Shown here in pieces: positions 10,888-20,115 of a stretch of DNA of 42,252 nt. The notes under the pieces are model-generated. The model had not been told where the DNA came from and did no database searches. It was given only the letters and a program-made list of their open reading frames with translations. Position 1 is the first letter of the stretch. Every line of letters begins with the position of its first letter. The position numbers and the translations under genes were made by a program. Origin of the DNA: a virus; IMG/VR virus record IMGVR_UViG_3300041407_000081, positions 1 to 42,252 of that record. One strand, written 5' to 3'.

Positions 10888-11046
10888 TCAGAATGTAAAG
10901 TCGATAAACATCAACCAGTTTTCGTAGGCCTGTTCAATTGTTTTTCCAAATCCGGCACTTTCAAGCTTGAACATATTCAAGCCAGTGCACCGGTACATTT
11001 CCTGATTAAACCCGCAACGCCTGATAAGCCTGATTCTCGGCTTCAT
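10888..11046 (-). CDS. Small hypothetical protein, 52 aa
   Basis: Reads MKPRIRLIRRCGFNQEMYRC and ends NWLMFIDFTF. The ATG has a perfect GGGGAGG 5 nt upstream and overlaps the upstream stop codon (ATGA at 11043-11046), so it is translationally coupled. The basic N terminus and aromatic C terminus (AYENWL) resemble small phage early proteins that follow replication genes. Function unknown. Confidence 0.55.
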   Translation of the reverse strand: MKPRIRLIRRCGFNQEMYRCTGLNMFKLESAGFGKTIEQAYENWLMFIDFTF

Positions 11047-16481: not shown

Positions 16482-16807
16482 TCGACTTGGACGCGCTTGA
16501 AGCCGAGATGCAGATGGCGCAGCAGAGCGGGCGGAAGATGTGCGCCGTGCATACTGCCGACCTGATGTCTCTTCTGATGCGCGCCAGGGAGCTGGAGAAG
16601 GTCCAGAGCATGGTTCCGATCCAAGCCGGGTTTCTTTGGCCAGAAGACCTACACAGGATGAAGTGTGGCGAGCTTCATCGCATCGGACTGTCGCGCAAGA
16701 GGGGGCCGAAATACTGCCTTGAGGCTCGCGTGCAGTACCTCCCGAGCAACATGAAAGGGCGTGAATTTAATTTTGATTTGAAAGCCTTGCTCGAAGCAGC
16801 AGGTTGA
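16478..16807 (+). CDS. Hypothetical protein, 109 aa
   Basis: I chose the ATG at 16478, which overlaps the Ea22-like stop (ATGA) and has AAGGAG 7 nt upstream; the frame is open 10 codons further but without a site. It is helical at first (LDALEAEMQMAQQSGRKM), then FLWPEDLHRM and a basic end. It is the last gene before the structured RNA element and the recombination block. Function unknown. Confidence 0.6.
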   Translation: MIDLDALEAEMQMAQQSGRKMCAVHTADLMSLLMRARELEKVQSMVPIQAGFLWPEDLHRMKCGELHRIGLSRKRGPKYCLEARVQYLPSNMKGREFNFDLKALLEAAG

Positions 16808-16853
16808 ATTACAGTCCGTCCCGTCAAGGCCGTGGAACGCTGAGACAAAGTTT

Positions 16854-16974
16854 GACCAGATGCCGGGGATTGAAACCCATGAAGTAAGCACCGTTCTCCT
16901 GATGATCAAGCCTCCCCGGCACTGGTCGATCTGAAAGGAGAGTTCCACCGGTGCTTAGCTTGATGGGTTTTTTT
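16854..16974 (+). ncRNA. Bistable RNA element: antiterminator/terminator before the exonuclease gene
   Basis: Four arms in order A, B, A', B'. A (16854-16868, GACCAGATGCCGGGG) pairs with A' (16914-16927) over 14 bp with one bulged A. B (16873-16893) pairs with B' (16949-16970) over 20 bp with one bulge and one mismatch, and B' runs into seven T (16968-16974): a strong intrinsic terminator. A third short stem joins 16895-16900 to 16936-16941 inside B/B'. A-A' and B-B' cross, and the 4-nt A-B link cannot span stem B, so they exclude each other. Folding is read by eye; regulation is inferred. Confidence 0.65.
16860..16934 (+). CDS. Possible 24-aa leader peptide within the RNA switch
   Basis: ATG inside arm A opens a frame (MPGIETHEVSTVLLMIKPPR and four more residues) that ends 7 nt after arm A'. 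A translating ribosome would melt A-A' and could set the terminator choice. There is no good Shine-Dalgarno, so this may be chance; it is listed because its ends match the switch arms. Confidence 0.25.
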   Translation: MPGIETHEVSTVLLMIKPPRHWSI

Positions 16975-16987
16975 GTGGGAGCTATTT

Positions 16988-17884
16988 ATGAATATTGCCG
17001 TTGGCCAGCTCGACCGCCAAACATACTTAGGCGGCTCCGACGTGGCAGCCATCCTGGGCCTGAGCCCTTACCGCACGCCGCTGGACGTGTACCTGGATAA
17101 GGTCGATGGCCGACTCCCAGACGATCCGGCGAAGATGAAGATCTTCAAGCGGGGCAACCGGCTAGAACCGTACATCCTCGACATGCTGGTCGAAGAGACT
17201 GGGCTTGAACTGGTGAAGCGCGGCGAGCGTTACCGCGATCGGGATCACGACTTCCTGGCCGCCGAGATCGATGCCGAGGCAGCAACCGGCGAGAACATCG
17301 AGGCAAAATCCGTAAACCAGTTCGGTGCAAAGGAATGGGGCACCGAGTGGACCGACGAGATCCCGGTCCATTACACCGCCCAGGCCATGCACGGGATGAT
17401 GATCAACGGCGCGCCGCGCACGATCTTCCCGGTTCTGATCGGCATCGATGACTTCAGGGTCTACAAGGTCGAGCGTGACGAAGAGACGATCGCCGGGATC
17501 CGCGCCAAGGAGGTCGAGTTCTGGCAGCGCATCCAGAGCAAGGAGGCGCCAGAAGCCACCACCGTTGGCGACATCGAGCGCCTGTTCTCGAAGGATTACG
17601 GATCTGTTGTTCAGGCCAGCGATGACATCGTCGAGGCATACAAGGCGCTGAAGGATCTGAAGAAGCGCATCAAGCTTCTGGAGTCCGACGCCGAAGACAA
17701 GGCCGAGATGATCAAACTCTTCATGCGCGAGCACCAGATCCTGAAGTTCGGCGCCGAGACGCTGTTAACTTGGAAGTCGCAGGACAGCACCCGCCTGGTG
17801 CCAGATCTGTTTCGCGCCGCCCACCCACGAATCGCCCGTAAGTTCGAGCGCACAACCACCAGTCGCGTTCTGCGGCTGAAGTAG
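16988..17884 (+). CDS. YqaJ/lambda-type 5'-3' exonuclease
   Basis: 298 aa from the ATG at 16988 (GGGAG 6 nt upstream). It chews the 5' strand of double-stranded ends to give single strands for RecT. YqaJ motifs: YLGGSDVAAILGLSPY (residues 13-28), RGNRLEP with Glu60, AAEIDA with Asp95, and IEAKS with Glu105/Lys107. The C-terminal 100 residues are helical and charged. It is the first gene after the RNA switch and forms an exonuclease-annealase pair with recT two genes on. Confidence 0.88.
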   Translation: MNIAVGQLDRQTYLGGSDVAAILGLSPYRTPLDVYLDKVDGRLPDDPAKMKIFKRGNRLEPYILDMLVEETGLELVKRGERYRDRDHDFLAAEIDAEAATGENIEAKSVNQFGAKEWGTEWTDEIPVHYTAQAMHGMMINGAPRTIFPVLIGIDDFRVYKVERDEETIAGIRAKEVEFWQRIQSKEAPEATTVGDIERLFSKDYGSVVQASDDIVEAYKALKDLKKRIKLLESDAEDKAEMIKLFMREHQILKFGAETLLTWKSQDSTRLVPDLFRAAHPRIARKFERTTTSRVLRLK

Positions 17885-18105: not shown

Positions 18106-19047
18106 ATGTCGACCAATCAACTGCGCCAGGCAGCAACTGGCACCGCTGTACAGCAGCAGAACGCCGCGCCCAAGACCATCATGGAAATGATGGCCAGCGC
18201 CTCGGTCAAGAATCAAATGGCACTGGCCATGCCGCGACACATGACGGCTGATCGCCTGATGCGTATCGCGCTGACCGAAGTCCGCAAGGTGCCCGCGCTG
18301 GGCAAGTGCAACGTTCAATCCTTCATGGGGGCCATCATGCAGTGCGCACAGCTCGGCATTGAGCCGGGGGCCGCCTTGGGCCATGCCTACCTTCTGCCGT
18401 TCGGCAATGGGAAGGCATCCGACGGCCTGGCGAACTGCCAACTGATCATTGGTTATCGGGGAATGATCGACCTGGCTCGCCGCTCCGGACAGATCGTCAG
18501 CCTGAACGCCCGCAGCGTGCATGCCAATGACACGTTCAGTTATGCCTATGGCTTGGATGAAACGCTGGAGCATGTGCCGGCCACTGGCGACCGCGGCGAC
18601 CTGACCCACGTTTACGCTGTGGCCAAGCTGAAAGGCGGCGGCATCCAGTTTGAAGTGATGTCGAAGGCCGACGTGCTCAAGGTCAAGGCCAGCAGCAAGG
18701 CCGGCAACAACGGGCCATGGGTCAGCCACTTCGACGAGATGGCCAAGAAGACCGTTATTCGTCGCCTGTTCAAATATCTGCCGGTATCGATCGAGATGAC
18801 CCAGGCGGTCGTTCTGGACGAGAAGGCAGACGCCGGTATCGATCAAGACAACGCATCAGCGCTCACTGGTGAATACGCCTACATTCAGGACGGCGACGAC
18901 CAGGTGAACACTGGGACCGGTGAGATCACCCAGCAAGTCGACGAGCCTGAGCCCGAGCCAGAAGCAAAGCCTGAACCGAAGCAACAGCGCCAGCGTCAAG
19001 CCGCGAAAGAACCAGAACCAGCGGGCGACCTGCCTGACATGGATTGA
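18106..19047 (+). CDS. recT: RecT-family single-strand annealing protein
   Basis: 313 aa. It coats single-stranded DNA and anneals complementary strands. Family landmarks: KTIMEMMASASVKNQMALAM, ADRLMRIALTEVRK, AIMQCAQLGIEPG, GHAYLLPFG, CQLIIGYRGMIDLARRSG and the PWVSHFDEMAKKTVIRRL end. Residues about 265-313 are a flexible Glu/Pro/Gln tail ending in acidic residues, which could recruit partners. One base after the 69-aa gene; works with the YqaJ-type exonuclease. Confidence 0.92.
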   Translation: MSTNQLRQAATGTAVQQQNAAPKTIMEMMASASVKNQMALAMPRHMTADRLMRIALTEVRKVPALGKCNVQSFMGAIMQCAQLGIEPGAALGHAYLLPFGNGKASDGLANCQLIIGYRGMIDLARRSGQIVSLNARSVHANDTFSYAYGLDETLEHVPATGDRGDLTHVYAVAKLKGGGIQFEVMSKADVLKVKASSKAGNNGPWVSHFDEMAKKTVIRRLFKYLPVSIEMTQAVVLDEKADAGIDQDNASALTGEYAYIQDGDDQVNTGTGEITQQVDEPEPEPEAKPEPKQQRQRQAAKEPEPAGDLPDMD

Positions 19048-19104: not shown

Positions 19105-20115
19105 ATGAACGCAGAACAACGCGCAATCATCGAAGCAGCAGAAAAAGAAGGCGTCCCGGCTTGCGAGCGTGACGCACGCCTGGTCGTTTACTCGATGGTG
19201 AAGGCGACCCGCGCCGCGATGGCGAAGTATGAAGTCGGCCTGAACAAGATGACCGAGAAGCAGCAGGACGCCGTGCACGGTGATCTGGAAGAAGCCTATA
19301 AAGACCTGGCACTTTCCATTGCCAGAGCCATGGCCAGCGCCGGCACTCCGTCGGTAGTCATGGACTGCAAAGACCTGAAGATCGCCAACGGCACATTCAC
19401 CGGCATCGTCAAGGCTGACCAGAAGTTCTTCAATGAACTGATCAGCAAAGTGCAAGACAAATCCGAAGTCGTGGTGGTTCTGTACGAACGCCAATACGCC
19501 GACGCCCTAGACGCCATCGAGTCGGACAAGGACCAGCGCTCGCTGCCTCTGGACTCTGAAGCTGGCGCGAAGCCTGAGAAGAAGCCTCGCGCAGCCAGCG
19601 GCACCAAATCGGCCGGAGCCCTGGCCAAGGCCGTCGAGTTGCCGGCGAAGCTGATCGAGGACGCCCGCAAGTTCATCACCGAGCAACAGAACTGCAAGGC
19701 GTCGGCGCTTCAGAACTTCCTGAAATGCAACTTCGGTAAGGCCGAGGCGCTGCAGAAGCATTTCGAGGCTGAAGGCCTGATCGAGCTCGTCGGGACCGAT
19801 GCGTCTGGGGACTATGAGCTGGTGCGCAGTACTGAAGCGAAGGCCGAAGCCGCTTCGACTGACGAGGCTCAGGAAGCTATCGACCTGGCAACTGACGGGG
19901 CAGACGATCCGATCACCGAACTGACCGATGAACTCTACGACCGCATGGTCGCCAAGACCACCGAGAAGGGATCCGCATCGGCCGGCGCACTGTCGATCAC
20001 CTTCGACGTCTCCTTCGAGATCGCCGAGCAGGCCTTCGACCGCATGGAGTTGGAAGGCGTGATTGACGCAGAAGGCAACCTGGCGCCGAGCGAGACCTTC
20101 CCAGTCATGGACTGA
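19105..20115 (+). CDS. Protein with two FtsK-gamma-like winged helices
   Basis: 336 aa. Residues 1 to about 150 are an unrecognised helical/beta domain (VVMDCKDLKIANGTFTGIV, VVVVLYERQYADAL). After a linker, residues about 187-230 (ARKFITEQQNCKASALQNFL, GKAEALQKHFEAEGLI) and about 277-325 (LYDRMVAKTTEKGSASAGAL, FEIAEQAFDRMELEGVI) each match the FtsK gamma winged-helix pattern, which in FtsK reads KOPS DNA. No ATPase motor is present. It lies between recT and the SMC-like ATPase and is followed by a strong terminator. DNA binding is inferred. Confidence 0.7.
   Translation: MNAEQRAIIEAAEKEGVPACERDARLVVYSMVKATRAAMAKYEVGLNKMTEKQQDAVHGDLEEAYKDLALSIARAMASAGTPSVVMDCKDLKIANGTFTGIVKADQKFFNELISKVQDKSEVVVVLYERQYADALDAIESDKDQRSLPLDSEAGAKPEKKPRAASGTKSAGALAKAVELPAKLIEDARKFITEQQNCKASALQNFLKCNFGKAEALQKHFEAEGLIELVGTDASGDYELVRSTEAKAEAASTDEAQEAIDLATDGADDPITELTDELYDRMVAKTTEKGSASAGALSITFDVSFEIAEQAFDRMELEGVIDAEGNLAPSETFPVMD

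Follow-up and report, generated by a model that had tools for sequence, protein, structure and literature searches.

Results

The leader upstream of the YqaJ exonuclease gene

The window analyzed here is the whole of a virus record of 42,252 bases. On its plus strand, a divergent regulatory region near 13.0 kb leads into a gene block with a YqaJ-type exonuclease gene (16988..17884; PF09588, E = 3e-20) and a RecT gene (18106-19047), while a replication-initiator gene lies on the minus strand. The protein encoded at 19105-20115, with homologues in L029, L031 and L018, has a C-terminal FtsK gamma domain (phrog_6576), and this protein is found in or beside such recombination modules in many Pseudomonas phages. 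A tRNA gene within the phage (8522-8593, minus strand) overlaps the region of a predicted ORF.

Directly in front of the exonuclease gene and on the same strand, we found a leader with pairing arms in the order D-A-B-C-A'-C'-D'-B'-T7. Arms D (16832..16838, GTGGAAC) and D' (16942..16948, GTTCCAC) form a perfect 7-bp helix, and arm A (16854..16868, GACCAGATGCCGGGG) pairs with A' (16914..16927, CCCCGGCACTGGTC) over 14 bp with one bulged A at 16860; these two helices, nested in one another, make up fold I. The remaining arms, B (16873..16893) with B' (16949..16970) and C (16895..16907) with C' (16928..16941), make up fold II, a single long terminator hairpin in which B/B' contributes 20 pairs with one G-G mismatch and one bulge, C/C' forms the upper stem, A' occupies the apical loop and D', abutting B', provides the 3' side of an asymmetric internal loop. 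Arms B, C and C' rest on covariation and an arm-swap test, A' from its sequence and the arm-swap test, and B' from all three. The hairpin runs into seven T (16968..16974), after which come a GTGGGAG ribosome-binding sequence and the YqaJ ATG at 16988 (together 16975..16990), the start codon thus lying 13 nt after the T-run. Both helices of fold I cross both helices of fold II, and in the window D, A, A' and D' have no base in common with B, C, C' and B'. Since the helices cross and the A-B linker of 4 nt is unable to span a terminator hairpin of 30 bp, the two folds would be mutually exclusive, as judged from geometry together with the calculated energies. The 146-nt RNA is predicted to fold at -53.6 kcal/mol vs. 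-40.6 +/- 3.8 kcal/mol for dinucleotide shuffles (z = -3.4), surpassing 200 of 200 shuffles. The original prediction had described a 14-bp A/A', a B/B' of about 20 bp, the T7 run and the 4-nt linker, all of which are present in the sequence where they had been placed; it had overlooked the helices D/D' and C/C', the promoter-like stretch 16787-16815 and the variation of the downstream gene.

This promoter-like sequence comprises a -35-like hexamer, TTGCTC (16787..16792, plus strand), 17 nt before a -10-like hexamer, TACAGT (16810..16815, plus strand), which in turn lies 16 nt before D. It is weak by consensus, and a consensus scan listed neither this promoter nor the long-loop terminator; only 0.9% of control stretches scored as high. 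Across the family described below, the sigma70-like promoter scoring best within 60 nt upstream has its end 12-17 nt from D in 36 of 37 elements, the distance being 16 nt in 18; as a rule it combines a TTG-type -35 with a spacer of 16-18 nt. We infer that transcription would start near 16822, about 10 nt before D.

Distribution of the element

A further 36 copies were found in Pseudomonas phages AH02, Orisa03 and HU1 and in IMG/VR contigs, giving 37 elements for analysis. Close relatives (IMG/VR contigs and AH02) came from DNA and pattern searches. Covariance models R1-R3, built on B/B' and C/C' only, cross-recognized divergent members including Orisa03 and HU1; a D-box pattern search yielded members with unrelated A arms, and a last pattern, for A, yielded further ones. 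A pattern scan of genome contigs was swamped by chance matches, and chance also accounts for the fit of L158, L169, L170, L173 and L174 to arm patterns. The host is Pseudomonas for every member with a named host, many of the IMG/VR members being without a known one.

The AH02 copy is 90% identical over the element and is followed by an HNH gene in place of YqaJ; as AH02 is reported to be lytic (PMC8567786), the element is not tied to lysogeny in that phage. This copy (L005:6004-6132, gene 28) is annotated as the hypothetical protein gene AH02_28, which is probably not a protein gene. Elsewhere in the AH02 record (about 29.5 kb, other strand), the stretch L199:9484-9640 holds a terminator with CCGCCAA in its loop, complementary to TTGGCGG just 5' of the stem; this half of the layout, with no clear D/D', lies near replication genes.

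Five phages carry two copies. In four of these (L198, with copies at 1943-2096 on the minus strand and 10900-11046 on the plus strand, together with G727, G728 and L217), the copies are on opposite strands in divergent gene blocks, about 8-11 kb apart with one per early gene block. The genes found behind the element encode YqaJ/RecT, Erf, RecT, an HNH endonuclease, an FtsK-gamma-like protein, nin proteins or an antirepressor (Ant); regulation specific to YqaJ was therefore rejected. Most copies do stand before recombination genes, as the original prediction had it, but some second copies precede nin genes or the antirepressor. Whatever the gene, 22 of the 24 members checked have a same-strand start codon 8-36 nt beyond the T-run, the two exceptions being L026, with its first ATG at 0 nt, and L193, with only a poor start candidate.

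We did not find the element in relatives with YqaJ homologues (epsilon15, D14H, BR153a and a Klebsiella phage), and a plasmid search gave no match. It was likewise not found with R1 in 369 gammaproteobacterial genomes or in 349 genomes of the G171 family, presumably Pseudomonadaceae and identified by PrrF; with 8 candidates scored per genome, the best at 24-25 bits, these searches are a weak negative as to its absence from hosts. One host genome stretch, L179:1501-1537, scored 24.9 bits against the apical hairpin that contains A' and is without stem B; we regard it as probably a chance match in GC-rich DNA. No Rfam 15 family reached its gathering score in the element regions, only a tRNA being matched in the window, and a literature search turned up no paper on the element, which is probably a new RNA family.

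Coevolution of the four helices

In the terminator helices B/B' and C/C', changes on both sides were seen at 20 of 30 pairs, with 96.7% of cells paired, and none of 500 shuffles did as well; evidence of this comparative kind weighs far more than the folding energy. D/D' is a perfect 7-bp helix in 37/37 elements, in nine sequences (GTGGAAC, GTGAGAC, GTCGTAA, GTAGTAG, GTTAGAC, GTCAGAC, GTGAGAA and GTCGAAA, with TTTGAGA in HU1), whereas chance alone would give about 0.025 perfect matches per element (13 x 31 positions x 4^-7). A/A' exists as 10 distinct coevolving arm pairs, with pairing retained as the sequence changes from GACCAG.TGCCGGGG/CCCCGGCACTGGTC in the window to GGATCGACGGC/GCCGTCGATCC in L159, ACCGGAAGCCGGG/CCCGGCTACCGGT in L175 and GGATCGAGGG/CCCTCGATCC in L191-L193. 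When each 5' arm was set against the 3' arms of other members, pairing was destroyed: a foreign partner equalled the native one in 0/42 combinations for D, 1/84 for A, 3/378 for B and 20/338 for C. Arms A and D were placed manually, with B, B' and C' fixing where they lie. Because the models that found the members with new arms contained neither helix, D/D' and A/A' are independently confirmed in those members; D in members found by the D pattern and A in members found by the A pattern are not independent.

The spacings are nearly constant: D' and B' are 0 nt apart (with one overlap of 1 nt, in HU1, the one base used in both folds), A and B 1-5 nt, B and A' 19-21 nt, and A' and D' 13-15 nt, with a run of T5-T8 in the members checked. 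Outside the pairing arms no sequence is conserved across the family, and we saw no shared loop or linker sequence that might serve a single ligand.

At the level of sequence, these patterns show that both folds are maintained. The proposal of two interlaced folds, one of them a terminator, is thus borne out by the coevolution of all four helices; it had been put forward with the proviso that homologues should not conserve B/B' alone without compensatory changes in A/A', and A/A' was found to change and still pair. Two copies from one phage are unlike in their D and A arms, yet in each copy the arms match their own partners, a sign of action in cis.

Predicted folding of the leader

Folding was calculated at equilibrium, with pseudoknots and kinetics left aside. 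With the RNA taken up to the end of D', the minimum-energy fold holds D/D' in 13 of 14 diverse members and the probability of A/A' is at least 0.97 in 16 of 17; once the RNA is complete, imposing D/D' carries a penalty of 6-19 kcal/mol in 13 of 14. The window is an exception, in that at full length its fold I tree and fold II come out level in energy, owing to an extra, unconserved pairing between the 5' end and B'. HU1 is another, having a weak A/A' and a C/C' that stays formed inside the D/D' fold. The calculations hence predict fold I first, on the nascent RNA, and fold II on the complete RNA, and to this extent, with HU1 as the exception, agree with the earlier suggestion that A/A' forms first.

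At equilibrium, fold I gives way once 7-21 nt of B' are exposed. In the group of the window, 4-13 nt separate the changeover from the end of the T-run, placing it for the most part within RNA still covered by polymerase, given its usual footprint. In several subfamilies, equilibrium already favors fold II after 7-12 nt of B', so that read-through as the default is not certain.

The 24-residue open reading frame

An ORF of 24 residues (16860..16934, plus strand), ending 7 nt after A', had been suggested as the place where a ribosome might cover A or A' and release the terminator. It is not part of the conserved element, being shortened, re-framed or absent in most members, and among the 37 members we found no conserved leader start codon or short ORF over the switch arms. 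Because the small ORF is not conserved, the ribosome trigger fails, and we consider a leader ribosome unlikely as the factor that chooses the fold; the 24-residue peptide may be incidental. In AH02 (L005), L006 and L007, two compensating indels keep the C-terminal frame (KPPRHWS) open, and L026, L022 and L031 break the frame.

Discussion

Upstream of the YqaJ gene we found an intrinsic terminator whose T-run stops 13 nt short of the start codon, together with a covarying alternative fold that crosses the terminator helices B/B' and C/C'. Helices that cross and coevolve, a terminator next to the start codon and, at a near-fixed distance, a sequence resembling a promoter are accounted for most simply by a promoter-linked transcription attenuator, and on these comparative grounds we consider it fairly probable that the element is one, with a leader of about 150 nt and two mutually exclusive folds. 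In such an attenuator, transcription would begin near 16822, and with the emergence of A', C' and D' the helices A/A' and D/D' would close, B and C being held in the loop (fold I, antitermination). Were fold I not formed or undone, C/C' and B/B' would close and polymerase would be halted at the T-run, short of the gene (fold II). Fold I would permit read-through, and the factor choosing between the folds cannot depend on one conserved loop sequence.

More tentatively, at somewhat short of an even chance, we surmise that the element represents a family of phage RNA switches not described before, whose antiterminator and terminator have no nucleotides in common and whose decision is topological, falling to whichever crossing helix pair closes first, with no need for a conserved ligand-binding sequence. 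In known attenuators, two structures compete for the same bases; here the bases would be different and exclusion would come from geometry, with spacings near-constant while the sequences change almost completely. Such a family would be a clean natural model of co-transcriptional folding, where order and speed of folding set expression, and would let one ask how the timing of recombination and nin genes is set in Pseudomonas phages that have no recognized N- or Q-type protein. With the layout kept and the letters changed, it would also offer many natural variants for mutant assays.

We also weighed a free-standing small RNA, about 150 nt long and acting in trans, its alternative fold serving maturation or a folding pathway. 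A promoter-like sequence and a terminator do occupy fixed positions on either side of the element, the complete RNA is calculated to be very stable (-54 to -67 kcal/mol), and phage RNAs with short and read-through forms exist, as with IsrK of Gifsy-1 (PMC4825925). A small RNA gene, however, needs no start codon shortly past its T-run on the same strand, nor would one expect unlike D and A arms in two copies of one phage or a lack of family-wide conservation outside the pairing arms; in addition, trans pairing elsewhere in the window did not go beyond chance. We consider this reading unlikely.

A model in which a phage antiterminator protein resembling Q or AlpA loads at the promoter and carries polymerase past the leader terminator, with fold I secondary or an aid to pausing, appears improbable to us. 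The succession of promoter, short leader, terminator and gene is that of lambda pR' and the P. aeruginosa alpB promoter (PMC7969949), but the spacers of 16-18 nt have, by eye, no motif common to the family, no Q-like protein was recognized among the window proteins scanned, which were a part of its ORFs, and the coevolution of D/D' and A/A' would be left without a reason.

A compact pseudoknot in which B/B' coexists with some of the other helices, binding RNA polymerase in the manner of put and not switching, seems to us very improbable. Pairing alone would permit coexistence, as no base is used in both folds, and the two copies in divergent operons of four phages recall putL and putR. Against this, A lies 1-5 nt from the base of B/B' and, on geometric grounds, should not reach an apical loop some 30 bp away, and put RNAs, of about 70 nt with two plain stem-loops, have no built-in terminator (PMC9378689). 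An ordinary terminator amid chance complementarity, for which B/B' and the T-run would indeed suffice to stop transcription, is to all intents excluded by the comparative data, D/D' and A/A' coevolving over highly diverged sequences with D/D' perfect far beyond chance expectation. An inverted-repeat binding site at the DNA level is disfavored, in that the stems covary and some of the pairs are G-U.

Among known systems, the attenuator reading has a likeness in the antisense-controlled transcription attenuators of plasmids pT181 and pIP501, where the default fold of the 5' leader bars the terminator and blocking that early fold lets the terminator form (PMC4878617). The attenuator proposed here would work in the same sense; their antiterminator, however, sequesters the 5' half of the terminator, whereas fold I pairs with none of the terminator's own bases and would exclude it topologically. 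As to an antisense RNA across the leader, a promoter scan of both strands of 15.5-18.5 kb gave no promoter-like site, the same scan having missed the proposed forward promoter.

With putL and putR of HK022, to which the original prediction had distantly compared the leader, the element shares its place as an RNA of phage early operons, a link to antitermination, proposed in its case, and, in some phages, two copies in divergent operons. The comparison breaks down over size, helices and terminator: put is a two-stem-loop RNA whose binding partner is the beta' zinc-binding domain and whose effect falls on terminators far away (PMC9378689), whereas the element, at about 150 nt, has a terminator of its own and four crossing helices.

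In AlpA-controlled alpB, 54 nt separate the start site from the beginning of the terminator, and the -35 and -10 have the binding element between them (PMC7969949). These leaders, like lambda pR' with Q, are controlled through a DNA-binding protein that sits at the promoter (PMC7969949), whereas the conserved feature of the element is RNA pairing, and by eye we found no common protein-binding motif between its -35 and -10.

The P4 CI RNA works in trans, with seqA and seqC as its targets, in contrast to the element, two copies of which in one phage carry different arms and so argue for pairing in cis. Both the P4 CI RNA and IsrK resemble it as phage leader RNAs with internal complementary segments and premature termination (PMC4825925).
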